From the NCBI GenBank assembly GCA_020443325.1, contig JAGRIK010000094.1, positions 1-32,691 on the forward strand: DNA of 32,691 nucleotides. Reading direction: 5' to 3'. Under the pieces are notes generated by a model. The model saw only the letters and a list, made by a program, of their open reading frames with translations, was not told the origin of the DNA and ran no database searches. This stretch comes from Halioglobus sp. Lineage in GTDB: Bacteria > Pseudomonadota > Gammaproteobacteria > Pseudomonadales > Halieaceae. A program made the position numbers and the translations under genes. Below are positions 5,172 through 32,360 of the stretch, in pieces; the stretch's first letter is position 1, and every line of letters begins with the position of its first letter.

Positions 5172-5172
5172 T

Positions 5173-10570: not shown

Positions 10571-10747
10571 GGAGAGGCTCGCTGCGGTGGGTCCGAGTGT
10601 GGGTGTTGCTGACCATAGAACCGGCTTCGCCTGCGGTCAACCACTGCGGCCGGAATATTGAACCGAACAACCGCATTTGTGGCGAATGCTGGTTCATCCC
10701 GGCCAGCGCTGCCACACTGCAGCGCAAGACCTTGCAGGTGGAACGGT

Positions 10748-12463
10748 ATGGCAGAAGAGAACCCGGACGTAGCGGTTGACTGGCTGGTAGTGGGCGCAGG
10801 TGCTGCCGGCATGACCGGCGCCGTGGTCGCACACCAAGCGGGCGGCTCTGTGCTGGTGGTGGAGAAAGAGGCCGTCTACGGCGGCACCACAGCGAAGTCC
10901 GGGGGTGTGGCCTGGATTCCGGCGAACCATCGGCAGGCCGCGGTGGGTGTCCAGGACAGCGTCGAGGAGGGCTACGCCTACCTGAAAGCGTTGATCGGCG
11001 ACAGCGTCAGTGACGCACGGATCCGCGCCTACGCCAACCGCGCCCGCGAAATGTTACTGTTCATGACGACCCACAGCCACGTGGCCTATTCGGCGCTGCC
11101 AAAGTACATGGACTACTACGAACACCTGCCGGGGTATAAAAACGGAGGGCGCTCCATGGACAACGCCCCCATCGACCTGCGCAAACTGGGCGCGGATGCC
11201 GCAACCATCAGGCTGGGGCACTACGATGGATTGTTACTGCCCTTCAATGTCACCGTGGAGGAAGGCCAGTCCCTGCAGGAGATGAATGCGGGCGCCTATT
11301 TAACCGGTTTGCGCCTGCTGCTGCGCTACCTGCTGGACATCCCCGCCCGACTGAAGCGCCAACGTGACAATCGCCTGACGCTGGGCCCGGCACTGGTGGC
11401 CAGGTTGCGGCTCTCTCTACAGGATCGGGATATTCCCCTGTGGCTGAACTCGCCTGTGCGAGAGCTGTTGCAGGACGATGGGCGCGTCTGCGGTGCACTG
11501 GTGGAACACGAGGGCAAGGTGCAACGCATCCATGCGCGCCGTGGTGTGTTGCTGGCCACCGGCGGCTTCTCCCACAATACCGAAATGCGTCAGCAGTACC
11601 AGCGCGCGCCCATCGGCAGCGAGTGGACCGCTGCCGCACCGGGGGCCACCGGAGACGCCGTGACGATGGGCACACAGATCGGCGCTGCACTCGGTTTTAT
11701 GGAGTGTGCCTGGTGGTCGCCCACCTACACGATTCCGGATGGGCGCGTGCTGGCGTTGATCGCCGGTAAATCCAACCCGGGGTCGATCATGGTCAATCGC
11801 CAGGGCAGGCGTTTTGCCAATGAGGCACAGCCCTATGAAGACCTGGTCAAGGCACAATATGACAGCGAAGCCCGCGGCGAGGGGGCCATCCCCTGTTACC
11901 TCGTGTTCGACGCAACTTACCGGGCCAAATACGCTGTCGGCCATTTGAAGCCGGGAAAAGTGGAACGCGACGCCGGGCTGCCGCCAGAGAACTTTACCTC
12001 CGGGTTACTGACGAAGGGCGAGACGCTGGAGGAACTGGCGGACGCGCTAAACATTGACCGTGCGGCACTGTTGCAGACCGTGGAGAATTTCAATCGCCAC
12101 GCCCGCAATGGTGAAGACCCCGAGTTTGGCCGTGGCGCAACGCAGCACGATCGCTATTACGCCGATAAAACCGTGTCGCCCAATCCCTCGCTCGGGCCGC
12201 TTGAAACTGCACCCTACTACGCGTTGCGCTGTGACCCGGGCGACCTGGACACCAAGGGCGGTTTGCTGTGTGATGAGTACGCCCGCGTGCTGGATACCCA
12301 CGGCGAAATTATCGAGGGGCTCTATGCAGCGGGTAATGCCAGTGCCGCCGCAATGGGAAACACCTATCCCGGCGCGGGCGCGACCATTGGCTCGGCGATG
12401 ACGTTTGCCTATATCGCCGCGCGCCATGCGTTCGGCATTAATGACGATCAGGAGCCAACATGA
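10748..12463 (+). CDS. FAD-dependent 3-ketosteroid delta1-dehydrogenase-like protein
   Basis: A 571-aa FAD_binding_2 flavoprotein. The dinucleotide site is VVGAGAAG (14-21) with Glu39 binding the ribose, followed by GGTTAKSGGVAWIPAN (45-60), matching the SGG-x-WxPxN element of KstD. Near the C-terminus APYYALRCDPGDLDTKGG carries the Tyr (490/491) equivalent in place to the catalytic Tyr487 of Rhodococcus KstD1, and the protein ends with GNASAAAMGNTYPGAGATIG, the FAD-closing motif of that family. Known members desaturate the A-ring of 3-ketosteroids, but fumarate-reductase-like relatives also exist, so the exact substrate is inference. AGGTGG precedes the ATG at 10748; the frame is open to 10658 (TTG, no Shine-Dalgarno). 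The stop overlaps the next start (ATGA). Confidence 0.87.
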   Translation: MAEENPDVAVDWLVVGAGAAGMTGAVVAHQAGGSVLVVEKEAVYGGTTAKSGGVAWIPANHRQAAVGVQDSVEEGYAYLKALIGDSVSDARIRAYANRAREMLLFMTTHSHVAYSALPKYMDYYEHLPGYKNGGRSMDNAPIDLRKLGADAATIRLGHYDGLLLPFNVTVEEGQSLQEMNAGAYLTGLRLLLRYLLDIPARLKRQRDNRLTLGPALVARLRLSLQDRDIPLWLNSPVRELLQDDGRVCGALVEHEGKVQRIHARRGVLLATGGFSHNTEMRQQYQRAPIGSEWTAAAPGATGDAVTMGTQIGAALGFMECAWWSPTYTIPDGRVLALIAGKSNPGSIMVNRQGRRFANEAQPYEDLVKAQYDSEARGEGAIPCYLVFDATYRAKYAVGHLKPGKVERDAGLPPENFTSGLLTKGETLEELADALNIDRAALLQTVENFNRHARNGEDPEFGRGATQHDRYYADKTVSPNPSLGPLETAPYYALRCDPGDLDTKGGLLCDEYARVLDTHGEIIEGLYAAGNASAAAMGNTYPGAGATIGSAMTFAYIAARHAFGINDDQEPT

Positions 12464-13515
12464 GTGGACGCAAGTACGCCTACCTTGAAGCGGGCCGGTA
12501 TGCGCGGGGCTGGCACATCGTACTGTTCTCACAGGAGTTACTGGTTGGCGAGGTGAAACAACTGCGCTATTTCGACCAGGATCTCATCGCCTACCGGGGC
12601 GAGTCGGGCAACGTTGCGATCCTGGACGCGCACTGCCCCCACCTCGGTGCCAACCTCGGCAGTGGCGAGGGCCGGGTGCGCGGCGACAATATTGCCTGCC
12701 CCTTCCACGGGTGGACCTTTAACCCGCAGGGCCAGTGCGTGGACATCCCCTATGCGAAGAGTATCCCGCAGAACGCCGTCAATGCACTGAAGGGCTGGCC
12801 CGTACTGGAGCAGGATGGTTTTATTGCACTGTGGTACGGGCTGGCCAGCGAAGAGCCGGAAGACTACCTGCCCCGAATCACCGAGTGGGGTTCGCAGGAC
12901 TGGGGCGACTGGCAGTTCTACCGCTCCCGCATTCGCGCCAGGCCCTGTGACATCATTGAGAATATCGTCGATATTGCGCACTTCCCCCATGTACACGGTG
13001 GGCGGGTTCAGTCCTGGGAAAATCGCTTCGGGGAGCGCACTGTCACCCAGTTATCGACCGTAAAGCGCGACCCGCAGGCCAACATGATCATCCCGCCCGG
13101 TGTCGTGTTTGATGTCGAATCAGCACGCGACGAGGCCGGGCAGGATGCCGATGCCTGGGGCGACGCCACTTATCATGGGCCGTCCATCATGTACTACTAC
13201 ACAGAATCCCGAAGCCCGGATGTGAGTTTCAGGAGTTGGTGGGTAAACTGCCACACCCCGGTAAACCAGGATGAAGTAGACCTGTGTTCGGCGGTGATCG
13301 TCAGCAGCCTGGGCGATACGCCCCTGCCGGTTGAATTTGCGGAGTTGTACCCACAGATGGCCCATGCTGCGTTTGGCCAGGACGTGGAAATATGGAAGGA
13401 CAAGATCTACCGTGAAGATCCCATCCTGTGTGATGGGGATGGCCCGATCAACAAACTGCGCCGCTGGTACGAGCAGTTTTATCTCCCCATCGATAAATCC
13501 GGAAGGAAGAAATAG
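12460..13515 (+). CDS. KshA-like Rieske non-heme iron oxygenase
   Basis: A 351-aa oxygenase component. The Rieske [2Fe-2S] ligands are Cys59-x-His61 (CPH) and Cys80-x2-His83 (CPFHGW). The mononuclear iron site is Asp171-x2-His174-x4-His179 (DIAHFPHVH) with Asp308 (QDVEIWKDK) as third ligand. The C-terminal GQDVEIWK...LRRWYEQFY block is close to that of 3-ketosteroid 9-alpha-hydroxylase oxygenase KshA as I know it, and the iron-ligand spacing also fits. KshA hydroxylates C9 and, with KstD, opens ring B; the upstream KstD-like gene overlaps by 4 nt and supports that role. No reductase (KshB) gene is in the window, so electrons must come from elsewhere. Substrate is inferred from family similarity. 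Confidence 0.88.
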   Translation: MSGRKYAYLEAGRYARGWHIVLFSQELLVGEVKQLRYFDQDLIAYRGESGNVAILDAHCPHLGANLGSGEGRVRGDNIACPFHGWTFNPQGQCVDIPYAKSIPQNAVNALKGWPVLEQDGFIALWYGLASEEPEDYLPRITEWGSQDWGDWQFYRSRIRARPCDIIENIVDIAHFPHVHGGRVQSWENRFGERTVTQLSTVKRDPQANMIIPPGVVFDVESARDEAGQDADAWGDATYHGPSIMYYYTESRSPDVSFRSWWVNCHTPVNQDEVDLCSAVIVSSLGDTPLPVEFAELYPQMAHAAFGQDVEIWKDKIYREDPILCDGDGPINKLRRWYEQFYLPIDKSGRKK

Positions 13516-16022: not shown

Positions 16023-17339
16023 GTGACGATAACAAAAACCACGCAGCAATTCTTTGCCGGCTTGTGCGCGATTCTGTTCGCATCGTTGACATTCGCCGCC
16101 GTCAATACCGTACCCAACTACGGCTATCCGATAAAGGATCGCTTTGCCGCCACGGTCGTCGGGACACCGGAGGAATACCGGGCCAAATTGCCAGACGATG
16201 TCCCGTTTAAAGGCCGCAGCATTACGATATTCCCCGAGCGCGTGACACCGGACGTGTTCTTTTACGGCCATGAGCTGCTTTATTCGGTTGCACTGCAGGA
16301 TAAGGAAGCGCCCCTGATCTTCCTCATCGCAGGAACCGGCGCCTCGCACAATGGCGCCAAGAATACCGATATGGCCAAGGCGTTCTACCAGGCTGGCTTT
16401 CACGTCGTTTCAATCTCGTCCCCCACCTATAACAATTTTGTTATCGCCGCGTCCAAGACGGGCGTTGTTGGTCACGCCGAGAGGGACGCTGAAGATATCT
16501 ACCACGTCTTTGAGATGATCTGGGCTGAGCTGAAGAACGAGATCACAGCCACGTCCTTCAATGTGACCGGTTATAGCCTGGGTGCCTTCAACGCGGCCTT
16601 TGTCTCGAAACTGGACGAAGAGCGCAAATCATTCAATTTTAAACGTGTACTGCTGATCAATCCGCCGGTATCGCTGTACAACTCTATTTCGCTGCTGGAC
16701 CGGATGACCCAGGATATCCCGGGCGGCGTCAACAACTTTGACAAGTTCGTTGACAAGCTGATGCGCGCCTATACCACGACCCTCGAATCCACCAGTTACA
16801 AGGATACCGCCGATGCCGGTGGAGATGACTTCCTCTACAAGACCTACAAGGCGTTGCATTTAAAAGACGAAGAACTGGCCGCGCTGATTGGCACGTCATT
16901 CCGCGTCTCGTCCGCCTCCCTGGTGTTCACCTCTGACGTTATGGCGGATTACGGTTATATCAAGCCGAAGGGAATGGTGCTGAACCGCTACAGCGATCTC
17001 CGTCTCTACAATGATGTCTCACTGCGGCTGGGCTTTACCGACTACTACCACGAGTTTTTCTACCCCTACTACAAATCGGAATACCCCGATATGACCCGGG
17101 ATGAGTTTATCCACTCGATGAGCCTGACCAGCATTGAGGACTACCTGAAAAGTGCGAAAAAAATTACGATGATGGGGAATGTCGACGACGTGATCCTCGA
17201 ACCCGGGGAGATTGATTTCTTCCCCAGGGTGTTCGGCGACAGGGCCACTATTTATCCCTACGGCGGCCACTGCGGCAACATGAGCTACACGGATAATGTA
17301 GCCCACATGGTAGCCGCATTTACCGAGGGGACAATGTGA
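16023..17339 (+). CDS. Exported alpha/beta-hydrolase (serine esterase-like)
   Basis: A 438-aa protein with an N-terminal signal sequence (hydrophobic residues about 9-26, ending FAA) and an alpha/beta-hydrolase core: oxyanion-region loop LIAGTGASHNG (101-111), nucleophile elbow GYSLG (183-187, Ser185) and a C-terminal catalytic His near 416 (YPYGGHCG). It is likely a periplasmic or envelope esterase/lipase; no closer family is recognised. The GTG at 16023 has GGAA 6 nt upstream and begins the signal peptide; the frame opens at 15948. It heads an operon: its stop overlaps the MlaA start, so it probably acts on envelope lipids or on an ester substrate handled by the same proteins. Confidence 0.82.
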   Translation: MTITKTTQQFFAGLCAILFASLTFAAVNTVPNYGYPIKDRFAATVVGTPEEYRAKLPDDVPFKGRSITIFPERVTPDVFFYGHELLYSVALQDKEAPLIFLIAGTGASHNGAKNTDMAKAFYQAGFHVVSISSPTYNNFVIAASKTGVVGHAERDAEDIYHVFEMIWAELKNEITATSFNVTGYSLGAFNAAFVSKLDEERKSFNFKRVLLINPPVSLYNSISLLDRMTQDIPGGVNNFDKFVDKLMRAYTTTLESTSYKDTADAGGDDFLYKTYKALHLKDEELAALIGTSFRVSSASLVFTSDVMADYGYIKPKGMVLNRYSDLRLYNDVSLRLGFTDYYHEFFYPYYKSEYPDMTRDEFIHSMSLTSIEDYLKSAKKITMMGNVDDVILEPGEIDFFPRVFGDRATIYPYGGHCGNMSYTDNVAHMVAAFTEGTM

Positions 17340-18106
17340 TGATGAAGTCAGTCCTTTCGCTCTTTTCGATACCCGTTTTGGCGCTGGCATTGGGTGCCTG
17401 CAGCAGCGGCCCACAGCCACAGCAACAGGCCTCCGACTATCCTGAGCCAATCTTTACCGCCAAGCGCCTTCTGCCTCCGGAGCAAGAAGACCTGGACGAC
17501 CTGACAGCGGTCTATGACCCCTGGGAAGGCATGAACAGACATATCTATAACTTCAATTACCATTTCGACCAGGCGGTATTCCTGCCGGTGGTGCGCGGCT
17601 ATGAGACAGTTGTCCCGAGTGTCGGCCGAAAGGGTATCGACAACTTCTTCAATAATTTTGTCGATATGCTTACGGTAATGAATTCAGCGCTGCAACTGCG
17701 CACCGGCAAATTCCTGCAGAGTACCAGCCGTGTGCTCGTTAACTCCACGATCGGCCTGTTTGGCCTGATCGACGTGGCGAGCGCAATGGATATTCCCAGG
17801 CCTGTAGAAAGCTTCGGTGACACCCTCGGGCACTATGGTGTAGGCCAGGGGCCATATCTGGTTATCCCCTTCCTCGGGCCGTCAAACCTGCGCGATGGCC
17901 TGGGCCTTTTGCCCGACGTAGCTGTACAGAGTTCAATCAAGAGCGCCGTTTTATCACAACCGCTCAACCTCACAACAACAGTACTTTTTCCCATTGATAC
18001 ACGGGCCAACACCTCGTTCCGCTATTACGAGAACGGATCCGCCTTTGAGTACCAAATGGTTCGCTGGCTGTATTCAACCAAGCGCAAGCTGGATGTAAAA
18101 CAATAA
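17339..18106 (+). CDS. mlaA: MlaA (VacJ) phospholipid-handling lipoprotein
   Basis: A 255-aa outer-membrane lipoprotein: signal peptide with lipobox LGAC (Cys21 acylated), then the MlaA domain beginning DPWEGMNRHIYNFN, with RKGIDNFFNNFVD, NSTIGLFGLIDVA, FGDTLGHYGVGQGPYLVIPFLGPSNLRDG. MlaA forms a channel with an outer-membrane porin that removes phospholipids from the outer leaflet and passes them to MlaC. Here it is not with mlaBCDEF but between an exported hydrolase and a binding protein, so it may be a paralogue with a dedicated job. Start chosen as the ATG overlapping the previous stop (TGATG), 8 nt after GAGGGG; a GTG at 17336 is the alternative. The next gene follows after about 13 nt. 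Confidence 0.93.
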   Translation: MMKSVLSLFSIPVLALALGACSSGPQPQQQASDYPEPIFTAKRLLPPEQEDLDDLTAVYDPWEGMNRHIYNFNYHFDQAVFLPVVRGYETVVPSVGRKGIDNFFNNFVDMLTVMNSALQLRTGKFLQSTSRVLVNSTIGLFGLIDVASAMDIPRPVESFGDTLGHYGVGQGPYLVIPFLGPSNLRDGLGLLPDVAVQSSIKSAVLSQPLNLTTTVLFPIDTRANTSFRYYENGSAFEYQMVRWLYSTKRKLDVKQ

Positions 18107-18119
18107 AGTGGGGACGAAC

Positions 18120-19289
18120 GTGATTCGCTATTTACTCCTGACCTCTTTTATCCTCGCGCTGGCGAATGCCCGCGTGGCGTATTCAGCGGATCCCAGCCAG
18201 CCGCTGGAACCCGTGAGGATAGGCACAACGCAGTCGCTCACCGGGCATTATGCTGAATTCGGCATCGAGCAGTTGCGCGGGCTGCAAATGTGGGCAGCGG
18301 ACGTGAATGCGCGCGGCGCCCTGCTGGGCCGCCCTGTTGAAATCGTGCACTACGATGACGGCTCCCGCAGTGCTGGCACGGTCACGGGATTCACGCAGCT
18401 GATTGGCAAGGACAATGTGGATATCCTGGTCGGCCCCTACTCCTCGGCGCTCACACTCAAGGCCAGCCTTGTTGCCGAGAAATACGATATACCCATGGTC
18501 ACTACCGCCGCTTCCGACGAGGAAATCTGGAGCAGAGGCCTGGTCAATGTTTTCGGTGCCGACACCCCCGTTGGCGACTACCTGAATGGCCTTGACGTGG
18601 CCGTCGATGCGGGTGTCAAAACAGTGGCGTTTATCTATGCTCGCACTGACTTTGGCGAGGATCTGGCAGCCGTATCCAAAACCCGATTTGCGGACCGTGG
18701 GCTCACAGTGGTATTGAGTGAAGGTTACGCGCCGGAGCAGCGCGACTTCTCCGCGCTGGCCAAGCGCTTGCGCGAGGTAAATGCCGATATGGTCTTCGGT
18801 GTCTCCTACCTGGAAGATTCCATCGCAATCACACGCGACCTGAAGAAGGAAGGTGTGAGGCCAAAAATGCTGGGCTTCACCATAGGTCCGGGGCTGCGCG
18901 AATTTGCTGACGAACTGGGCGCGGAAGCAGAAGGTATTTTGGGCATCGTCCAGTGGCTGCGCAGTTCGCGGGAGCCGGGCGCACAGGATTTCGCCTACCG
19001 CTTCGCCCAGCGCTACGGCTACCATCCGGGTGTTTACGCGGTAATAGGTTACAGCGCCGGTGAAATACTGGAAGCTGCTATTCGCCTGGCCGGCACCACC
19101 GACCACGCCGCAGTGCGCGAGCAACTCAGGACCATGTACTTCCAGGCGTTGATAGGCTCCTACCACGTCGATCAAACCGGCCGACAGATAGGTCGCCGCA
19201 ACCTTGTGATGCAGTGGCAAAACAACGAGCGGCGCCTGGTCGCCCCCGAACAGTTGGCTAACAGCCCGTTAATCTATCCAAGAAAGTAA
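18120..19289 (+). CDS. Periplasmic LivJ-type substrate-binding protein
   Basis: A 389-aa type-I periplasmic binding protein with a signal peptide (about residues 1-22, ending AYSAD) and the two-lobe Peripla_BP_6 fold: VRIGTTQSLTGHYAEFG at the start, DDGSRSAGTVTGFTQLI, ILVGPYSSALTL, MVTTAASDEEIW and VAFIYARTDFGEDLA. Members of this family bind branched-chain amino acids, but also aromatic acids and other small organics, for ABC import. No permease or ATPase gene is adjacent, so it either serves distant ABC components or works with MlaA and the hydrolase in a ligand relay. The GTG at 18120 has GGGGA 6 nt upstream; a GTG at 18108 without one is rejected. Ligand unknown. Confidence 0.88.
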   Translation: MIRYLLLTSFILALANARVAYSADPSQPLEPVRIGTTQSLTGHYAEFGIEQLRGLQMWAADVNARGALLGRPVEIVHYDDGSRSAGTVTGFTQLIGKDNVDILVGPYSSALTLKASLVAEKYDIPMVTTAASDEEIWSRGLVNVFGADTPVGDYLNGLDVAVDAGVKTVAFIYARTDFGEDLAAVSKTRFADRGLTVVLSEGYAPEQRDFSALAKRLREVNADMVFGVSYLEDSIAITRDLKKEGVRPKMLGFTIGPGLREFADELGAEAEGILGIVQWLRSSREPGAQDFAYRFAQRYGYHPGVYAVIGYSAGEILEAAIRLAGTTDHAAVREQLRTMYFQALIGSYHVDQTGRQIGRRNLVMQWQNNERRLVAPEQLANSPLIYPRK

Positions 19290-19707: not shown

Positions 19708-19891
19708 GGTTTTGCGCCTCTATGAATTTATGCGGACCCAATGGGCCGTCTGGCGCCCATCAGGCCCGGGGCAAGACAAGGGCGAAAGATAACACAGCCC
19801 CTTTCTGGTAGTATCACCCGAAACCGCTTGGGTGTTGATAACCACCCTGCACTGCGGCTTCGGCAGCAATTCTGAACGACCAGGGGACGAT

Positions 19892-21358
19892 ATGAGCGAT
19901 ACCGGAAGCGCAACCCGAAACACCACCTCTACCCCCTGGGACGACCCCAACCTGGCCCATGTCTCCGGCTTTCGCACGGCCACCGACAACCTTGCCTATG
20001 AAATCAGCGCCGAGGAGATCAGGGGCAAAATCCCCGAAAACCTGCATGGCATATTCCTCCGCAACGGGCCGGCCCGCAATGAGTTGGCAGGCAAACCCTT
20101 TGGGCACTGGTTCGATGGGGATGGCTGCGTGCATACGTTTCGTATTGAAAATGGCAAAGTCGATTACCGCTGCAGTTTTGTTAAAACACCGAAGTACGTC
20201 GATGAGACGGCGGCCCAGGCCGTGAAATATCGAAGTTATGGGCACAACGCACCCGGCGGATTCCTGAAGAACCTGCACATGCCCGCCAATGCGGCCAATA
20301 CCAGCATTGTTTATCACGGCGGCAAACTGCTGACCCTGTTTGAAGGCGGGCTGCCCTGGCAGCTCGACCTGGACACCCTGGATACCATCGGGCCGGAGAA
20401 CTTCGACGGTGCACTGAAGTCCCTGGATACTTTCAGCGCCCACGGCAAGCTGCATCCGCGCACCGGCAATTATTTCAACTTCGGTATGGGTATGGGTATC
20501 AGGCCTAAAATCAATCTGTACAAGATTTCCCCCGAGGGCAGGATGACAAACCGAAGCGCGGTTGCCATCGAGCGGATGGCGTTTTGCCACGACAACGCGA
20601 TGACCGAAAACTACCTCGTGTTTATGGTCATGCCTGTCAACTTTACCAGCCCGCTCAAAGTGTTATTGGCACGGGATACCATCGACAGGAACATGGTCTT
20701 CCAGCCCGAGGAAGGCATGAAGGTGTATGTGGTCTCCCTGAATGACTTCAGCCTTGTTCGCACCTTCGAGGTAGAGCCCTTCATGTTTGCCCACAGCTCA
20801 AACTGCTGGGAGCGCGATAACGAGTTGTTTATCGATGTCATTGCCATGTCGGATAAGGACGGCGAGGAAGGCACCCTGTGTGCTCGCAACATCTTCACCC
20901 AACCGCGCCCTTCCACGGGCCAGCTGACACGCTATCGCTTCGACATGAAAACCGGGGCATCGAAGAAGGAGGTGTTACCCAGCGGTATTCCCAGCGAATT
21001 CCCGCAGTGGGATTTGCGCAAAACCGGCTCTGAAAGCCGCTATACCTACACTGCCGGCATCTGCGAGAACGAGACTCCCGGGTTCTACAACGCGCTGCAG
21101 CGTGTTGACTATCGAACCGGCGAAACAAAAGTCTACGACTGCGGCCCGGGGCGGTATACCTCGGAACCGATATTCGTACCCCGGCACCCGGATTCCGATG
21201 AGGCCGACGGGTATATTCTCTGTGTCATCTATGACGCGGCCACTGAACTCTCGGAGCTGATGATTCTGGATGCGGCGTCAATGGCCGATGAAATCGCAGT
21301 GGTGCCCCTGAAAAACCACATACCGCATGGCTTCCACTGTGGGTACACTCCGCTGTAA
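19892..21358 (+). CDS. Carotenoid-cleavage-dioxygenase-family enzyme
   Basis: A 488-aa member of the carotenoid oxygenase (RPE65/CCD, lignostilbene dioxygenase) family. The four iron-ligand histidines of the seven-bladed propeller are visible as His188 (KLHPRTG), His233 (FCHDNAMTENY), His301 (MFAHSSNCW) and His482 (PHGFHCGYTPL). The N-terminal P-E-N-L-H-G-I-F-L-R-N-G-P motif (about 48-60) is the family start. The enzyme cleaves an alkene C=C bond with O2 to give two carbonyl products; the substrate could be a carotenoid/apocarotenoid or a stilbene. The adjacent alcohol dehydrogenase (21416) may process the resulting aldehyde. AGGGGA lies 6 nt before the ATG; the open frame from 19832 lacks a good ribosome site. 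Confidence 0.93.
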   Translation: MSDTGSATRNTTSTPWDDPNLAHVSGFRTATDNLAYEISAEEIRGKIPENLHGIFLRNGPARNELAGKPFGHWFDGDGCVHTFRIENGKVDYRCSFVKTPKYVDETAAQAVKYRSYGHNAPGGFLKNLHMPANAANTSIVYHGGKLLTLFEGGLPWQLDLDTLDTIGPENFDGALKSLDTFSAHGKLHPRTGNYFNFGMGMGIRPKINLYKISPEGRMTNRSAVAIERMAFCHDNAMTENYLVFMVMPVNFTSPLKVLLARDTIDRNMVFQPEEGMKVYVVSLNDFSLVRTFEVEPFMFAHSSNCWERDNELFIDVIAMSDKDGEEGTLCARNIFTQPRPSTGQLTRYRFDMKTGASKKEVLPSGIPSEFPQWDLRKTGSESRYTYTAGICENETPGFYNALQRVDYRTGETKVYDCGPGRYTSEPIFVPRHPDSDEADGYILCVIYDAATELSELMILDAASMADEIAVVPLKNHIPHGFHCGYTPL

Positions 21359-24428: not shown

Positions 24429-25049
24429 TTAGCTTGTCTGCCCCTGCGCCGTGCAATCCCGATCCCAAACCGCAGACAGAAGGTTCCTGCACAGGTCTGC
24501 CAGATCTGTAGAAATTTCATCGAACGTTAATTTTCCGGTCGTTGCTAATATAAAACTGCCCAACAGATACCGGAAGATGGTGCTTTCTACTTTACCCCGG
24601 TTGGCGACCGGAACTTCACCCAGCACACTGCCGAAGATCCCACTAATCAGGCGCTCAATCTCGTGTTGCGCATCGATCACCGCCGGATCTTCGGATGCAA
24701 TATTGTTTACGCAGACGGCCAGCAGTGTGCTGCTGCCCGCAGCCAGCGTACTGACTTGCGCGCACAACGATGAAATTTTTCCCCCCACGGTGCGTCCCTG
24801 CGGCGGATGTTGTTCCAGAAATTCAATGAGCCGGTAGCCCGCATCGAGCGTCACATCGGCAATCAGGTGCTCGCGCGACGTGAAGCTCCTGTAAAGCGTA
24901 CTCCGCGAGGTCCCGGCCATTGCGGCCACCGCTTCCATGGACATCGTAGCGCCCTGTTCCAGTATCAACTGCCTGGCACAAGCAATAATGTGCTGCCGCC
25001 GCTCCTTTTGCTGGGGACTGATGCGGCGCTTGATGATCTGTACCTCCAA
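24429..25049 (-). CDS. TetR/AcrR-family transcriptional regulator
   Basis: A 206-aa TetR protein; the helix-turn-helix spans about residues 14-60 (MSMEAVAAMAGTSRSTLYRSFTSREHL). The ligand domain is of normal length and gives no ligand clue. The TTG start has AGGAG 6 nt upstream. It is divergent from the P450 gene, and a 16-bp perfect palindrome overlapping the P450 -35 lies between them, so repression of the P450 and autorepression are likely. Confidence 0.9.
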   Translation of the reverse strand: MEVQIIKRRISPQQKERRQHIIACARQLILEQGATMSMEAVAAMAGTSRSTLYRSFTSREHLIADVTLDAGYRLIEFLEQHPPQGRTVGGKISSLCAQVSTLAAGSSTLLAVCVNNIASEDPAVIDAQHEIERLISGIFGSVLGEVPVANRGKVESTIFRYLLGSFILATTGKLTFDEISTDLADLCRNLLSAVWDRDCTAQGQTS

Positions 25050-25123
25050 CCTGCTCTCCTACTTCCCTAGTTCCATGGTGAATGCGCGAGATAGGCTCTT
25101 CATAACGCGCAATGATACTAGTG

Positions 25124-25140
25124 TTGACACACGTGTGTCA
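25124..25140. promoter_or_regulatory. TetR operator candidate on the P450 promoter
   Basis: TGACACACGTGTGTCA (25125-25140) is a perfect 16-bp palindrome. TTGACA at 25124-25129 is a consensus -35 for the rightward P450 promoter, though its -10 (TTTATC, 16-nt spacing) is weak. A dimer on the palindrome would block polymerase. Confidence 0.65.
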
Positions 25141-25188
25141 CCTGCTTTATCGTCTCCCGCAAGCCATGCCTATTTTCAGGAGCCGCGC

Positions 25189-26367
25189 TTGAATAAACAG
25201 GATCAACTGGCCCAGGATTTTTCAACCTGGGAACTGCCCGGCCTGGAACTGCACCGGTTCATGGATGAACTCCGCCAAATGGGTTCTGTGGTCCCCATCA
25301 CCTATTACGGTACCAGCGGCTACCTGGCGACGACCCATGACGCCTTGACCCGCGCGTTCAAGGATACACAGAACCTGCCTCCGGAGCGGGCCTACCAGTT
25401 AGGTATCGCGCCGCTGATTGGCGAAAACTTTCAATCCATGTCAGGAGAGCGCCATCGGCTGTACCGAAAGCTGGCAACACCGACGTTTCGGCCCAAAATG
25501 GTCGATAAGATGGACAGCGCCATGCTCAAGGATGTTGCCAACGAACTCATCGATAAATTTGTCGCAGCGGGTGAAGCCGATCTGACGAAAACGTTCACCC
25601 TTTTATATCCTTACATCGTAATTGCCCGCATGCTGGGCATACCCCGCGACGAGGAGACAAAGTTTGCCGACTGGGTGGTCGGCCTGCTGCATTTCACTTC
25701 GGACCCGGAACGCGCTTACAGATGCCGCGATGAGCTCTGGACTTACCTCGATCCTGTAATTGAGGATCGTCGGCGCAGCCCGAAAGGCGATGTTATCTCC
25801 CAGTTGATTCACGACGAGGTCGACGGGGTAAGAATGGATGATGCCCTGCTCAAGTCCCATATCGGCATTATGTTCAGTGCCGGCTCATCGACGACTCACG
25901 ACTCGCTCGGCAATCTCCTCTATGCCCTGCTAACGACAGGAAACTGGGCGAGAGTACGCGACGATGAAGCACTTCGCGATAGTGCGATTGATGAGGCCCT
26001 GCGCTGGGAAGCCGCGGTATCCTTCCTGCCACGCATGACGCCGGAGACGACATCAGTAGTAATCGAAGGCGTAGAAATACCCTCCAACACATTTGTATTC
26101 ATGGGCATTGCGTCTGCAAACCACGACCCGGCCAGGTTTGACAACCCCCATGTATTTGCCATCGACCGTACGGAAGAATCCAAGTCGATGACCTTCGGCC
26201 ACGGCCCCCGGATGTGCCCAGGCATGCACCTGGCGCGCATGAACCTGCGCACCACTCTGGACTCGCTGCTGGAACGTCTGCCAAACCTTGAGCTAACCAG
26301 CCTGGAGGGAGCGGCGCCAAGCGGCACAATCTTCAGGCACCCCACGAAGTTGCTCTGCCGGTTCTGA
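25189..26367 (+). CDS. Cytochrome P450 (soluble bacterial type)
   Basis: A 392-aa class I-type P450. The I-helix oxygen site is SAGSSTTHDS, the K-helix ExxR is EALR and the heme loop is FGHGPRMCPG with Cys343. Size and the CPG-x-H-L-A-R-M-N-L pattern place it among soluble bacterial P450s that hydroxylate small or medium hydrophobic molecules. The TTG at 25189 has CAGGAG 6 nt upstream; the frame is open to 24937, but that part contains the divergent promoter and palindrome. A divergent TetR gene suggests substrate-induced expression. The ferredoxin at 30802 is the only redox partner in the window and belongs to another P450 operon; this P450 may share it. Substrate unknown. Confidence 0.9.
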   Translation: MNKQDQLAQDFSTWELPGLELHRFMDELRQMGSVVPITYYGTSGYLATTHDALTRAFKDTQNLPPERAYQLGIAPLIGENFQSMSGERHRLYRKLATPTFRPKMVDKMDSAMLKDVANELIDKFVAAGEADLTKTFTLLYPYIVIARMLGIPRDEETKFADWVVGLLHFTSDPERAYRCRDELWTYLDPVIEDRRRSPKGDVISQLIHDEVDGVRMDDALLKSHIGIMFSAGSSTTHDSLGNLLYALLTTGNWARVRDDEALRDSAIDEALRWEAAVSFLPRMTPETTSVVIEGVEIPSNTFVFMGIASANHDPARFDNPHVFAIDRTEESKSMTFGHGPRMCPGMHLARMNLRTTLDSLLERLPNLELTSLEGAAPSGTIFRHPTKLLCRF

Positions 26368-26597: not shown

Positions 26598-28862
26598 TTA
26601 TAGCCCAAAGTTATAGCTTAGGGTAATCCCGTAAGTGCGCGGGGCAATCTGACTTCTGATTTCGACATAGGGCGAAGGGACCATCACGCCAGTTGAGTAA
26701 TCGGGTATATCAGGAAGCGACCTGTCCTTTAACTTTGCGCTCTCATCCGCAATATTTTTAACCCAGACATTGACGTCCCATACCGCATCGACAGATCGCA
26801 AACCCACATACAGATCCAACGTGACATAGCTGTCCAGGTCATCACGGAAGACGGGCGAGTAGTACTCAGTCTCCGCATTGAGCAAACCGCGCAGATACCA
26901 CTCGCTGGAAATACTTCTAACGCTACCCCAGTATTCGGAGGACACATTGGCCGACCATTCTGGCAAGCCGCTGGCTCTTTCCCCAGTCAGGTCACAGGTA
27001 TTGAAGGACCAGACCGCCGCACCAATAGGCTCTCCATCGGTACACGGTACGTCACCGGCGTCAGTCAATTCCGTCTGGTTGAAGCTTAAAGACGAATTTA
27101 GATTCCAGTGCTCGCTGATTAATACAGAGAAGTCGGTATCAAAACCGTAGGACTCGGCCTCATCCACATTGACCACGGGATCAGAGAGTGAGATGTTGCC
27201 GTCCTGATCCCTGTAGGACACACTCGCAGCCTGGTACTGGAACTGATCGTAAAGCTGGTAATATGCAGCGAAGTTAAACAGGCCACGGCCATCCCACAAT
27301 TTCCACTTGAAACCGATTTCCAGGTTATAACTATCCTCTGAATCGAAGGCCCCGAATACAGGCGGCTGTGGATTTCCAGCAATGTTGGCCGAACCGTCCC
27401 GCCAGCCTGTATCGAAAGCCGTATAGGCCATCAGGTCGTCATGAAAATTATACTGGTACTTAAGTGATCCAGTCACAGCATTGTCGGAGAGATGCTGCGC
27501 GCCTGGTAGAACACCATCCGTCTCCCTCGACTGGACCAGCAGTTCCCCCGCAGGCGTCAGCAGGTATACATCTGTCAAAAACGGCTGAGCCGCGTCGCGT
27601 TTGACATCGTTGTAACGCAGACCAACGGTTAATGTTCCGTTCTCGCTTACGTTTATCGAATTATGCGAGAACAATGCCCAGTCTTCGCCCGTCAATGATG
27701 CTGACGAGTCTGTATCGGCACGCACTACGGTTCCCTGAATACGGGGGTCGAACAGATAGGTACTGACATCTACCTTTGTATTTGAATCAGAGTCTCCATA
27801 ATAGGCACCCACGGTCCAGTTCCAGAAATCGTTGTCCTGCGAGGCGAGACGCAACTCATAAATATTGGCCTCGGTTGGCGAAGGCACATATTGCTCACGC
27901 GCCTGCACAGCCGTTGCATCCTGGTCGTAATAGCGATCAATCGCTGCATCTTGGTAGCTGTAGGAGAATGTAGCGACCCACTCATTGGAAAACGTGTAGT
28001 TACTCTCCAGAATCAGGAATTTAGCTTTGTTCTTATAGGTGGAATCAAATTCCGCCAATGCGATCCGATCATCAAAGTCCAGACCTGCACCCTCGACGAC
28101 CGGGTCAGCATCCGCATCATCCTTAATATGGTGCCAGGATAAACGCGCGTCAAAATTATTCGTGGGCTCCCATAACATAACCAGGCGATAGGCTTTGGTT
28201 TTCGTCTCTGCGTGTTTGTCCAGGGTACTGTTATAGACATCGCTGTCTTCATTGTTGTCGTACAGCCCCGATACTCGCAGACCCAGTTCGTTCTTTATCA
28301 GCGGCAATGATGCCGCAACCTGTGTATTGGTCCCATCCCGGTCATTAAAGCTCTGCCTGATCGATCCGTCTATCTTTTCCAGATTCGGGTTGGCGGTTCT
28401 TATCGTTAACGCGCCCGCCGGCGAGCTTTTTCCATACAGCGTCCCCTGGGGACCACGCAACAGTTCCAGTTGCTGAAGATCGAACAGGCCGCTGTACAGG
28501 TTGCGGGATTGCGAGATAAATGTCCCATCCATATATGTGGTGACACGCGGCGAAACGGGGGCGTTCAGATTGGTGCCCATGCCACGTGTCGCGATGTCAG
28601 TATCGAAATTCGTGCCGTTGATAGTAAGGCCGGCGGTCATGTTGGAGAGTTCATCAAAACTGAAAATGGCATATTCATCCAACGCCTCTCCCGTTACCAC
28701 GTTGATAGTGATGGGGGTATCCTCCAGCGACTCCAGGCGTTTCTGTGCCGTGACGATAATCTCCTCCAGCACCAGAGAGGACTCAGCCTGCACTTTGGCA
28801 TGGAATGTCACCGCAAGAGATAAGACGGTGCTGACCAGTAATGGATAGTTTTTTACTCGCAT
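26598..28862 (-). CDS. TonB-dependent outer-membrane receptor
   Basis: A 754-aa receptor with a signal peptide (about residues 1-26), LEEIIVTAQKRLESLEDTP at the TonB box/plug start, plug motifs DIATRGMGTN, LELLRGPQGTLYGKSSPAGALTI, and a beta-barrel ending SYNFGL, so the usual terminal Phe is followed by Gly-Leu. It imports a large or hydrophobic substrate; this sub-class is typical of receptors in terpenoid/steroid and sugar degraders. AGGTGG lies 8 nt before the ATG and a promoter with an inverted repeat is at 28898-28926. It is the last gene of a minus-strand block with the duplicated-domain protein, ferredoxin and CYP51-like P450, though with its own promoter. Confidence 0.95.
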   Translation of the reverse strand: MRVKNYPLLVSTVLSLAVTFHAKVQAESSLVLEEIIVTAQKRLESLEDTPITINVVTGEALDEYAIFSFDELSNMTAGLTINGTNFDTDIATRGMGTNLNAPVSPRVTTYMDGTFISQSRNLYSGLFDLQQLELLRGPQGTLYGKSSPAGALTIRTANPNLEKIDGSIRQSFNDRDGTNTQVAASLPLIKNELGLRVSGLYDNNEDSDVYNSTLDKHAETKTKAYRLVMLWEPTNNFDARLSWHHIKDDADADPVVEGAGLDFDDRIALAEFDSTYKNKAKFLILESNYTFSNEWVATFSYSYQDAAIDRYYDQDATAVQAREQYVPSPTEANIYELRLASQDNDFWNWTVGAYYGDSDSNTKVDVSTYLFDPRIQGTVVRADTDSSASLTGEDWALFSHNSINVSENGTLTVGLRYNDVKRDAAQPFLTDVYLLTPAGELLVQSRETDGVLPGAQHLSDNAVTGSLKYQYNFHDDLMAYTAFDTGWRDGSANIAGNPQPPVFGAFDSEDSYNLEIGFKWKLWDGRGLFNFAAYYQLYDQFQYQAASVSYRDQDGNISLSDPVVNVDEAESYGFDTDFSVLISEHWNLNSSLSFNQTELTDAGDVPCTDGEPIGAAVWSFNTCDLTGERASGLPEWSANVSSEYWGSVRSISSEWYLRGLLNAETEYYSPVFRDDLDSYVTLDLYVGLRSVDAVWDVNVWVKNIADESAKLKDRSLPDIPDYSTGVMVPSPYVEIRSQIAPRTYGITLSYNFGL

Positions 28863-29106: not shown

Positions 29107-30456
29107 CTAACCGCGGGCGATTACGCCGGGCATACGGCGCCTTTCAAATTTGAAATTTACGCCGCCGCTACTTCGAGCAATCTGCATCTCAAACGGCTCC
29201 TTCATGGGCGTATTCTGTTCATCGATCACGATATCCCAGGCAAAACCAGAGCCACCATAATCGTCAACTTTATGACAGCGTGCGCGGGGATTGACGTGCG
29301 CTGCAATAGACTCCAGCGCGGGATGAGGGTCCGCCGACAACTGGCTGAACCAGTTGTGCTTTACCGCTTCAGCCAGCGCAGGGCAGTCGCCGATACTGAG
29401 GCGCAAACTGTTTGGCCCGGTAATATCGACATTGAAATCAACATAGGTGCGAGGGTAGAAATTCGGGTGCAGCTGGAAGATTTTCGCCATGGTCTCGATA
29501 TCGTCACCGTCCAGCCCCAGGTTCTTCTGAAAACGCTCCACCGCTACCCTACCATGACCTACCCATGACCGCTCCGAGAATCGACGGCCTACCTCGTCAC
29601 CATAATTAATGGTCTGGCTGCGGGTGTAACTGTGCGACAGCAGAAGTGCCTGAACGGCGTTTTCCTGAATAATGGTCTGCAGGGCGCGGTGCGAAAAATC
29701 CTCAAACTGAAGGTGCGGGTCAAATTGCCCGCTGTAGTCGTCGAGGCCGCCGGTCTCTCTTGTTTCCTCAGGCGCTACCAGCGCGATACCTGCCAGCAGA
29801 CTCTTCTGCAACTCATACATAATGGAGTGATGCTCAAAGGTAGTATCTTCCTCCTCTTTATACACTTTCCAGCGACAGTGCGGATAACGCCCGACGCCGT
29901 TCCCGCCATCGACATCAATTCGCGGTGGACGATGCAGGGGCCGCACGACGATGCGCGGATGTGTAGCGGCCGCTGTGGCATCGAAGGTCGGATCCTCTAT
30001 GTCATGGCACATCGCCTGAATAAATCCGGTGTCATTGCCGTTGTTCTCCAGGTCCATCAACGCACCGCAGTGCGCCAGCCAGAACTCACCGTAATCGGGT
30101 TCATCCAGACGAAACTGGAAGTCCATGAACTGCTGTGGAGAGCCCACCTCGAGTTGAATGTTTTTGAACACCGTCTCCACGGTATCACCCTCGAAACCGA
30201 GCGCGCGCTGCATACGCTTCGAATAGATAGGGCTAGCACCCTGCCACTCCTCAATCCCCGATCGGGTAAAGCCTTCGCGGCCATAATCAATCGCCACCAA
30301 AGGCTGAGCCACTCGATCAAACAGGTGCCCAATCAAATTAAACTCGTGCGCCAGGCGAGAGAGAAAATCTCTGGAGAAATCCTCCAGCATTAATTGCGGG
30401 TCGAATGCACCGGAGTAATCATGCCTCAGGTCGGGCTGTTTACTTTGCTTACTCAT
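29107..30456 (-). CDS. Unrecognised protein made of two diverged copies of one domain
   Basis: A 449-aa soluble protein with no signal or membrane segment. It is a tandem duplication: repeat 1 (about 13-200) and repeat 2 (about 240-425) both begin DYSG-x-FDP-x-L-x2-EDFS, followed by a helix-rich stretch, then a DYG/NYG element, a block ending in G-x-D-G/T-x-ET and Q-L, and a Cys-x-ALx(E/D) site (Cys130 and Cys358) and DPxxx(D/E)-x-A-A-x3-P. The conserved Cys and nearby Asp/His in both copies suggest a catalytic or cofactor role, but I know no named family. AGGAG precedes the ATG by 8 nt; a TTG one codon earlier is the alternative. It lies between the ferredoxin/CYP51-like operon and the receptor, all minus strand. 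Confidence 0.85.
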   Translation of the reverse strand: MSKQSKQPDLRHDYSGAFDPQLMLEDFSRDFLSRLAHEFNLIGHLFDRVAQPLVAIDYGREGFTRSGIEEWQGASPIYSKRMQRALGFEGDTVETVFKNIQLEVGSPQQFMDFQFRLDEPDYGEFWLAHCGALMDLENNGNDTGFIQAMCHDIEDPTFDATAAATHPRIVVRPLHRPPRIDVDGGNGVGRYPHCRWKVYKEEEDTTFEHHSIMYELQKSLLAGIALVAPEETRETGGLDDYSGQFDPHLQFEDFSHRALQTIIQENAVQALLLSHSYTRSQTINYGDEVGRRFSERSWVGHGRVAVERFQKNLGLDGDDIETMAKIFQLHPNFYPRTYVDFNVDITGPNSLRLSIGDCPALAEAVKHNWFSQLSADPHPALESIAAHVNPRARCHKVDDYGGSGFAWDIVIDEQNTPMKEPFEMQIARSSGGVNFKFERRRMPGVIARG

Positions 30457-30801: not shown

Positions 30802-31026
30802 CTAATCCTCGTCGAGTAACAACAGGGTGATAACCTTGTTCGGACAGTACTTCGCTGCAGCTTCAACTTTTCCGCTAAGGCTACTATCCGGCCTGGACTG
30901 CAGCACCCGCACCCTGGGATAGACCGCGGTTTCATAGTCTATCGCAAACACTTCTGGCGCCTCCTCGGCACACTCGCCGTGGCCCTGGCATAATTGCATA
31001 TCAACTTTAATACAGTACCGTCCCAC
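30802..31026 (-). CDS. [3Fe-4S]-type ferredoxin, P450 redox partner
   Basis: A 74-aa ferredoxin. The first two cluster ligands are in CQGHGEC (C-x5-C, where the residue normally giving the fourth ligand is His/Gly), and the last is in KYCPNKV, the single-cluster pattern of P450-associated [3Fe-4S] ferredoxins. It passes electrons from a ferredoxin reductase to the P450 encoded just upstream. The GTG start shares one base with the P450 stop (TAGTG) after GGGAGG, so the two are translationally coupled; the longer frame starting at 31065 would overlap the P450 by 40 nt. The same P450-ferredoxin order is known for cyp51 in mycobacteria. No reductase gene is nearby. Confidence 0.9.
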   Translation of the reverse strand: MGRYCIKVDMQLCQGHGECAEEAPEVFAIDYETAVYPRVRVLQSRPDSSLSGKVEAAAKYCPNKVITLLLLDED

Positions 31027-32360
31027 TAAGCCTCCCGCCTGCGACGCCGATATCGCAACATGCACGGCGCACTCGGCCGTAAAATCAAAGAGGGCATGAT
31101 ATCGGTATAACTCTCCGGGGCATCAACTGTTTCAAAGGTATATCGGTGCAACAGTGCGCAAAATATTGCCTTTACCTGCAGCAGCGCGAAGGCATTGCCG
31201 ACACATTTTCGATGTCCCCCTCCAAAAGGGATAAACGAGAACACGTTGTCCGGATGCTTTCGCGCTGGATCAAACACTTCGGGGTGATCATAGAACGCTT
31301 CCAATCGATGGGCTACATAAGGGGACACCATCACGTTCTTACCGGCTTCGATGTGGTAATCCGCATAATCAAAGCCCTGCATCACCCTGCGAGTGAGCGT
31401 CACCAGGGGCGGGTGCAGTCGCAACGTCTCCAGTATAAAAGCATCCAACAGGGGAATTTCCTTCAACGCATTGCGACTCAACTCCGTGGTGTGGCGGAAA
31501 AGCTCATCGATCTGCAGAGTAATGTCTCCAGCGAGTTCCGCATGGCGAGCCAACTCCACAGCCGCCCAGCTGGATGTGTTACCGCTGGTATGATGGCCAG
31601 CAAACATGAACCAGATCACCATACCGCATATTTCATCATCGCTAAGCCCGGTACCATCTTCATAGGTGGCATCCAGGTATACCTGCAACATATCGTCGTA
31701 TTCCTGATTATCCTGTCGGCGCAAGGCAATCCGCTCGCCAATGAGCTCCCCCAGCCTTGCCCGTGCAATATCACGCCTGACAGCCACTTGTTCCTGCCCC
31801 TGGGGGTCCCGCAAGGCAGCCGGGCTGACCGCATATTCCAGGTCGTGGTACAGATCCGCAAATTCATCTGTCAGTGAGTAACGAAACTCTGAGCCCATGA
31901 GGCAATGCGTGGAAGTCTTCAACGTCAAACGCGTAAAGGCGTCGTAGATATCCAGTTCTCCTTCATCACCCCAATCCGATACCCAGTCCTCGACTTCTTT
32001 GGCGATGACCGCCGCATAGGTTTTCATCCGATCCTGGCGCAGTCCGCGTGCCTGCATCTTGAGCTGCTGGCGTTCTATCTGGGGGGGCGCACCATACTGA
32101 ATGCCTTGCCCAAACACGGGCACCATCATCTGGTAGGCCTCGGCCGCACTAAGAAGGTCATCTGGCGCTCGGAAAACCGCCTCCTGTGCCGCCGGGGACA
32201 CCATCAGGACCGTTTTAAGGCCGGCGAGGTCAAACTCACACACCTCACCGTTTTCGTTATAGGCACGCTGCAAGAAAAGCGCCGGGTTATCGCAAAACTC
32301 CTCGTAATGGCCCATGTTCTTCTGTGCGCCACTGACCTGGGGAATGGGTATTGATTTCAT
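31026..32360 (-). CDS. CYP51-like cytochrome P450 (sterol 14-alpha-demethylase family)
   Basis: A 444-aa P450. The I-helix signature FAGHHTS (253-259) is diagnostic of CYP51, ETLRLHPPL (311-319) is the K-helix, PFGGGHRKCVG holds heme Cys386, and the C-terminus PCMLRYRRR resembles that of mycobacterial CYP51. The B-C region AYQMMVPVFGQGIQYGAP (75-92) aligns with the sterol-contact motif Y-x-F-x2-P-x-FG-x2-V-x-(F/Y)-D: Tyr76, Phe83 and Tyr89 are kept, but residue 78 is Met and residue 90 is Gly instead of Asp. CYP51 enzymes remove the 14-alpha-methyl of sterols in three oxidations; the substitutions suggest a related rather than identical substrate. GAGAAG precedes the ATG. A ferredoxin gene overlaps its stop by one base. 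Confidence 0.9.
   Translation of the reverse strand: MKSIPIPQVSGAQKNMGHYEEFCDNPALFLQRAYNENGEVCEFDLAGLKTVLMVSPAAQEAVFRAPDDLLSAAEAYQMMVPVFGQGIQYGAPPQIERQQLKMQARGLRQDRMKTYAAVIAKEVEDWVSDWGDEGELDIYDAFTRLTLKTSTHCLMGSEFRYSLTDEFADLYHDLEYAVSPAALRDPQGQEQVAVRRDIARARLGELIGERIALRRQDNQEYDDMLQVYLDATYEDGTGLSDDEICGMVIWFMFAGHHTSGNTSSWAAVELARHAELAGDITLQIDELFRHTTELSRNALKEIPLLDAFILETLRLHPPLVTLTRRVMQGFDYADYHIEAGKNVMVSPYVAHRLEAFYDHPEVFDPARKHPDNVFSFIPFGGGHRKCVGNAFALLQVKAIFCALLHRYTFETVDAPESYTDIMPSLILRPSAPCMLRYRRRRREA

Follow-up and report, generated by a model that had tools for sequence, protein, structure and literature searches.

We propose that the focal protein, which is encoded in the window (the whole stretch of 32,691 nucleotides of Halioglobus sp. 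DNA that was analysed), is a fused pseudo-dimer with an H-NOX/TRAPP-Bet3/V4R-type fold and a cytoplasmic partner of the CYP51-ferredoxin-8,14-Bsr set, a reading to which we assign a probability of about 0.5. That the protein is a component of the CYP51/8,14-Bsr sterol pathway is well supported and, in our judgement, very probable; its exact role may be that of a sterol carrier, an assignment that we place slightly below even odds.

Gene and genomic setting

The ATG of the focal gene is preceded at a distance of 8 nt by AGGAG, as read from the sequence (Table 1), and the end of the window is the end of the sequenced contig. The preliminary description, made from the DNA alone, had placed the gene between a P450/ferredoxin pair and a TonB receptor, and these neighbours were confirmed. 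The P450 and ferredoxin genes lie upstream of the focal gene on the same strand. The nearest solved structure of the P450 is a CYP51 (E 1.9e-112), and the closest match of the ferredoxin lies in 6mcw, a CYP51 entry of 551 residues. The gap between the ferredoxin and focal genes is 345 nt, and a scan for promoter-like sites (3 sites, 1.8 expected) and terminator-like sites (3 sites, 2.0 expected) gave no support in the window for a transcription unit shared by the two genes. Moreover, the window encodes a 3-ketosteroid dehydrogenase, which matches 7p18 (E 3.3e-135), and, adjoining it, a 3-ketosteroid 9-alpha-hydroxylase (KshA-type Rieske oxygenase), which matches 4qdc (E 1.2e-61); the two are likely a steroid ring-degradation pair. 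According to the accessible part of PMC5790920, a Halieaceae isolate from a sponge grows on cholesterol.

Table 1. Coordinates of the focal gene, its parts and its neighbours in the window
Feature	Position	Strand	Remarks
Focal gene, 449 aa	29107..30456	minus	ATG begins at 30456, stop ends at 29107
N-half, residues 1-229, conserved domain	29770..30456	minus	profile and conservation data
C-half, residues 230-449 and stop, most likely degenerate second domain	29107..29769	minus	profile and conservation data
Cys130 codon, candidate metal ligand	30067..30069	minus	kept in 66/66
Cys150 codon, candidate metal ligand	30007..30009	minus	kept in 66/66
Glu154 codon, candidate metal ligand	29995..29997	minus	kept in 66/66
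Cys194 codon, candidate metal ligand	29875..29877	minus	kept in 66/66
Cys358 codon, C-half counterpart of Cys130	29383..29385	minus	kept in 63/66
Ferredoxin	30802..31065	minus	best match is the ferredoxin part of CYP51 entry 6mcw
CYP51-like P450	31026..32360	minus	profile and solved-structure matches
TonB-dependent receptor	26598..28862	minus	downstream of the focal gene
3-ketosteroid dehydrogenase (KstD-type) and KshA-type oxygenase	10658..13515	plus	steroid setting

The focal protein is a tandem duplication with unequal halves

The preliminary description had recognised two halves with shared motifs, and the DYSG-x-FDP block, the C-x-A-L-x-(D/E) motif at Cys130 and Cys358 and the DP...AA...P block were all found again. 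In a local alignment, the halves scored 176, while 1000 shuffles gave a mean of 31.7 (sd 5.1) and a maximum of 63; similarly, the profiles of the N-half and the C-half, built from 37 homologs, aligned over 202 columns (hhalign probability 99.9, E 1.3e-34). Both halves also have their main helices and strands in matching order in the predicted model. We conclude that the focal protein is a tandem duplication.

The two halves are unequally conserved. Columns conserved at 95% or more number 36 in the N-half and 16 in the C-half (66 sequences), and 31 columns are invariant in the N-half compared with nine in the C-half (27 sequences, drawn from the 37 homologs). The homolog set leaves out the duplicates L004 and L006 and the fragments L031 and L032, and some of its members were trimmed to the homologous part; the 66-sequence set consists of these 37 and 29 of 31 further sequences, the duplicate L052 having been dropped and the single-domain L056 set apart. 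We take the C-half to be, most likely, a degenerate partner.

An invariant Cys/Glu set in the N-half

In the N-half, three Cys and one Glu are invariant (Table 1), and His151 is kept in 65 of the 66 sequences. Cys130, Cys150, Glu154 and Cys194 are also present in L056, the single-domain relative with 23% identity. The C-half differs: Cys358 is its only Cys column at 90% or more among the 66 sequences, and Ser374, His378 and Phe405 of the window protein, which align with Cys150, Glu154 and Cys194, are at variable positions that are not conserved as Cys or Glu (Glu occurs at position 378 in 4/66). Accordingly, the Cys noted earlier is indeed kept in both halves (Cys130 and Cys358), but the earlier proposal of two active or ligand sites is not supported in the sense of two equivalent sites, as Cys130 belongs to an N-half set of which three of the four invariant candidate ligands are missing from the C-half, and as the homolog from Nonomuraea is a single N-type domain. 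Strongly conserved charged residues of the N-half include R48, R81, K98, D155 and R176.

The ligand order in MopR differs from the Cys/Cys/Glu/Cys order of the focal protein, and a V4R-like tail pattern (E-x2-C followed by C) was found in none of the 66 focal sequences. By analogy with MopR-type domains, in which zinc is held by three Cys and one Glu (PMC10715001, accessible text), Cys130, Cys150, Glu154 and Cys194 may hold a metal.

Predicted fold and comparison with known families

An AlphaFold2 model of the whole focal protein, based on the 37-sequence alignment, had a pLDDT of 92 and a pTM of 0.93, and the N-half modelled alone had a pLDDT of 80.5. When compared with the PDB using Foldseek, the whole protein had best 25 matches that were all H-NOX, TRAPP, MopR/PoxR/DmpR or YslB, and the best 25 of the N-half (target TM up to 0.59) were entries of these same groups together with guanylate cyclase; one of the N-half matches, 3kxc, is labelled simply as a transport protein, and we take it to be TRAPP. 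None of the matches reached E <0.001, the rmsd was at least 5 angstrom in most alignments, and thioesterases and others ranked below the best 25. H-NOX is grouped by fold with V4R and Bet3. On these predicted models, the focal domains in all likelihood share an H-NOX/TRAPP-Bet3/V4R-type fold, the resemblance being one at the level of the fold.

The focal protein resembles each of these groups in part. With the sensor domain of MopR/PoxR/DmpR and with V4R it shares the predicted fold and three Cys plus one Glu as candidate ligands, and these relatives bind a hydrophobic ligand; it differs from them in having no sequence match, tandem domains and no regulator domains. With TRAPP subunit 3/Bet3 it shares the predicted fold (human Bet3 1sz7, target TM 0.59 with the N-half), and the palmitate-bound entry 6aq3 is among the best whole-protein matches; by contrast, there was no PDB sequence match to this group and no sign of a vesicle role. 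V4R and Bet3 are related, and Bet3-family proteins work as dimers (PMC2253512, accessible text). Finally, it resembles H-NOX in predicted fold (3tfg and guanylate cyclase entries) and differs in its haem site: Y-x-S-x-R, the H-NOX haem-binding motif, occurs in only 1/66 focal sequences, and an H-NOX-type haem site was therefore rejected.

In agreement with the earlier statement that the protein has no named family, no match was found in Pfam, NCBIfam, PHROG or PDB sequences at the thresholds used, nor in anti-phage libraries. A sequence scan detected no stretch resembling a membrane helix. Membership in V4R (PF02830) was rejected by sequence, as V4R was absent from the ten Pfam families listed for the 37 members at E up to 10, and by profile, as hhalign gave probabilities of 0.2 (N-half) and 0.1 (C-half) against five V4R-bearing proteins of seven loci. 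Similarly, membership in DUF6125 (PF19620), listed for 4/37 members in the Pfam scan, was rejected: the best match, to the C-half of L009, was weak (21.3 bits, E 2.8e-4) and below the curated cut-off of 27 bits, and the match to the single-domain protein from Nonomuraea (L113) was also weak (17 bits, E 0.006, model positions 2-161 of 164). DUF6125 is itself a family of unassigned function. In samples of 37, 150 and 8 genomes the family was not detected, and as the controls gave no match there either, these samples carry no information on its absence. Our literature search found DUF6125 unmentioned and V4R, sterol, P450 and gene cluster nowhere together; the family may be published elsewhere.

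It had also been suggested that the protein oxidises or binds a hydrophobic ligand. Binding agrees with the solved fold relatives, which include binders of hydrophobic ligands; for oxidation by the focal protein itself, nothing was found. Because the fold resembles those of phenol and gas sensors, and a TetR-type gene is present on part of the homolog stretches, we considered that the protein might be a sensor or regulator that reports sterol status to a transcription factor or to the P450. However, the two halves fill the whole window protein, and the Pfam scan of the 37 homologs, some of them trimmed, detected no credible DNA-binding or signalling domain; we regard this role as improbable.

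Subfamilies and single-domain relatives

The N-halves and C-halves of 27 of the 66 proteins were placed in one tree (quick method, SH-aLRT only, midpoint root). N-halves fell on one side and C-halves on the other, each with subfamilies A, B and C, which fits a single duplication before the subfamilies split. In the whole-protein tree, well-supported branches set apart three groups: B, C and the A sequences from relatives of the window. The last of these groups, which includes the window protein, is nested among Myxococcota-type A sequences, a position that suggests gene transfer.

The Nonomuraea gerenzanensis homolog consists of one N-type domain of 221 residues with its own stop. Its identity is 43-50% with the 20 A- and B-type N-halves that served for comparison and 38% with the best-scoring C-half, and in the tree it forms the basal branch of the N-halves (the remaining N-halves group without Nonomuraea at SH-aLRT 92). 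A frame-shifted two-domain gene was rejected, as the gene has its own stop and no family match lies downstream. The single domain represents either the state before the duplication or the loss of the C-half and, whether ancestral or reduced, it implies that the N-type domain can stand alone. The record that holds it (L113, NZ_LT559118.1) is labelled as a plasmid, yet is 11.85 million bases long. The more distant single-domain relative, L056 (1177-1869, minus strand; genome G464), lies beside a TonB receptor gene on a contig that also carries one A-type and one B-type focal copy.

Some homologs lie near CYP51 and 8,14-Bsr-like genes

The recurrent partner of the focal gene encodes a protein of the NTF2 superfamily that is non-homologous to the focal protein and resembles the sterol reductase 8,14-Bsr; it occurs in the same genomes as the focal gene and, in part of the loci, beside it and CYP51. 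According to the accessible text of PMC13277303, 8,14-Bsr acts on the CYP51 product, the genes for 8,14-Bsr and CYP51 co-localise and are likely inherited together, and six residues of 8,14-Bsr (Y37, Y43, Y78, Y80, D133 and D136) were tested, with a natural F37 being noted. Placed by spacing and not against the Methylococcus sequence, the equivalents of Y43, Y78, Y80, D133 and D136 are present in 23/23 copies of the NTF2 gene, and the Y37 equivalent is Y in 18 and F in 5 of these copies. The portion of PMC13277303 available to us contains no description of the focal protein, reports that 8,14-Bsr works in E. coli without a focal-type partner, and leaves open both its hydride donor and the delivery of its substrate.

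We analysed 42 stretches with focal homologs, 41 of Myxococcota type and one from Nonomuraea. Six of them (L116, L117, L122, L124, L128 and L131; L122 and L128 are closely related) have the order CYP51-ferredoxin-NTF2-focal on one strand, and the ends of the NTF2 and focal matches are separated there by 106-174 nt. Overall, CYP51 was present on 12 of the 42 stretches, in nine cases within 3 kb, and the NTF2 gene on 13, in ten cases within 3 kb; CYP51 was absent from 30 and the NTF2 gene from 29 of the fetched stretches, partly on account of contig ends, at which many stretches stop. A further 24 stretches came almost entirely from relatives of the window genome; of these, 13 carried CYP51, ten the NTF2 gene and 15 TonB. 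The expectation that homologs lie near steroid-type genes was borne out in part of the loci. By gene list, the surroundings of the Nonomuraea homolog (L113) resemble the mycobacterial CYP51 operon Rv0762c-Rv0771, as given in the accessible part of PMC10470581; common to both are a ferredoxin, CYP51, a second P450, ALDH, dehydrogenases and a carboxymuconolactone-decarboxylase-like gene.

Co-occurrence of the focal gene with 8,14-Bsr

Across 282 Myxococcota genomes, a focal gene (E <1e-50) was found in 39, a strong 8,14-Bsr (E <1e-85) in 37 and CYP51 (best E up to 1e-80) in 63 genomes. The focal gene and strong 8,14-Bsr were found together in 36 genomes, the focal gene only in three, 8,14-Bsr only in one and neither in 242 (Fisher p 7.9e-41; p-values overstate this association because the cut-offs were set after the gaps had been seen, the 8,14-Bsr profile derives from copies linked to focal genes, and related genomes do not count as independent). 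The P450 link proposed for the homologs was likewise recovered, with CYP51 in 34/39 focal-bearing compared with 29/243 other genomes. The one genome with strong 8,14-Bsr only (G551) contains a focal fragment at E 3.2e-5. Nine genomes with a distant 8,14-Bsr (1e-73 to 1e-41) had no strong focal match; one of them, G654, had a weak one. Weak focal matches (G551, G606, G644, G654 and G686) were scored as absent; all five are in CYP51-bearing genomes.

In 57 relatives of the window genome, an A- or B-type focal gene and 8,14-Bsr (<1e-40) were both present in 18, the focal gene alone in none, 8,14-Bsr alone in one (G052) and neither in 38, with an interrupted B-like fragment in G007 scored as absent. 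Four genomes with a C-type focal gene (G007, G022, G031 and G032) had no strong 8,14-Bsr. With the two samples pooled, the focal gene was present in 54/56 genomes with strong 8,14-Bsr, and in 54/65 when a single cut-off of 1e-40 was used. In a plasmid collection of 72,556 records, the single record with 8,14-Bsr (E up to 1e-10) was the single record with a focal gene, that of Nonomuraea. Among 274 genomes drawn evenly from the window's class, a focal match was detected in the window's own genome only.

Could this link reflect shared ancestry, with catabolic islands carrying along a focal gene that serves another substrate? The relatedness of the genomes within each sample, a C-type subfamily without a tie to strong 8,14-Bsr, and the general catabolic genes (ALDH, HIBADH-like and CMD-like) among the neighbours of the homologs are all consistent with such an origin. 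However, the pairing of the focal gene with 8,14-Bsr is not confined to Myxococcota: it recurs in the relatives of the window genome and in a single actinobacterial record. Moreover, it persists when only the 63 CYP51-bearing Myxococcota genomes are compared: 33 have both the focal gene and strong 8,14-Bsr, one has only the former, one only the latter and 28 have neither, so that presence and absence agree in 61. We therefore give shared ancestry little credence and favour a component of the CYP51/8,14-Bsr sterol pathway.

The window genome has a strong 8,14-Bsr on another contig (C184), and the window CYP51 is of a type with 54-59% identity to one Myxococcota set and about 38-45% identity to the operon-type CYP51 copies. 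Because 8,14-Bsr lies on another contig and the CYP51 type is different, the direct partner of the focal protein in the window may be the adjacent CYP51 rather than 8,14-Bsr. In the Myxococcota sample, window-like CYP51 (54-59%) was found without strong 8,14-Bsr in G676, G671, G686 and G709, and with strong 8,14-Bsr in G596, G518, G643 and G634; this distribution may point to a second CYP51 lineage that has a different set of partners.

Proposed action of the focal protein

Because the protein has no stretch resembling a membrane helix, has a fold associated with hydrophobic ligands and is present together with CYP51 and 8,14-Bsr, often next to them, it would most simply bind their shared sterol. 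We suggest that it works in the cytoplasm, where the fold cavity of the N-domain would bind a sterol intermediate from about the step of C-14 demethylation, that a metal held by Cys130, Cys150, Glu154 and Cys194 would brace this domain, and that the degenerate C-domain would replace the second subunit of a dimer. Binding the sterol and handing it over between CYP51 and 8,14-Bsr would be its most likely action, with catalysis of a neighbouring step as a close second.

This second possibility would make the focal protein an enzyme of the CYP51/8,14-Bsr pathway, in which the N-domain would use the metal or the conserved Arg/Lys/Asp/Glu set to catalyse a neighbouring step, such as an isomerisation, a C-4 step or a reduction with an unknown donor. 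The excess of invariant columns in the N-half (31 compared with nine), several of them charged, speaks for an enzyme, and conserved R48, R81, K98, D155 and R176 would also suit one and to that extent count against the carrier. In addition, an epimerase/reductase-type gene follows the focal gene in L116, L122, L124 and L128, and the reductant of 8,14-Bsr is not known from the accessible text of PMC13277303. On the other hand, no cofactor-binding motif was recognised on inspection of the focal protein. The matching solved structures are, to our knowledge, those of binders, sensors and tethering parts and not of catalysts, which also argues against an enzyme. We consider catalysis possible, if doubtful, and prefer the sterol-handing partner by a small margin. 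A more specific version is rather unlikely: here the family would be an unrecognised component of bacterial sterol C-14 demethylation that receives the CYP51 product, an 8,14-diene, and passes it on to 8,14-Bsr or itself provides the missing reducing or isomerising chemistry.

Bacterial sterol enzymes have repeatedly proved unlike eukaryotic ones. With its presence in nearly all genomes with strong 8,14-Bsr, and in fewer at the looser cut-off, the focal protein is a direct candidate for the question of the redox donor or substrate delivery. If such a sterol role is correct, sterol handling would join gas sensing, phenol sensing and vesicle tethering, the activities for which this fold is known, and the focal protein would, as far as we know, be the first protein of the H-NOX/TRAPP/V4R fold with a demonstrated action on sterols. 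The gene would also be a marker of sterol islands in Halieaceae-type marine bacteria and in uncultured Myxococcota, and the duplication would have turned a domain that acts singly in Nonomuraea into a fused pseudo-dimer.

Other genes of the window

Four further regions of the window, all on the plus strand, deserve mention. A second P450 is encoded at 24937-26367, with CYP125MRCA as the nearest PDB entry (E 4.1e-43); its longest frame overlaps a divergent TetR gene (24429-25049, minus strand), and the true start of this P450 is therefore probably further in. A 314-residue protein encoded at 5152-6096 appears membrane-like on reading and had no Pfam match at E 0.1. At 17336-19289, the gene for an MlaA-type lipoprotein adjoins that for a periplasmic binding protein, possibly for lipid uptake. 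Finally, the gene at 19832-21358 encodes an oxygenase of the carotenoid-cleavage type (RPE65; E 1.8e-120), which is surprising company for steroid genes.
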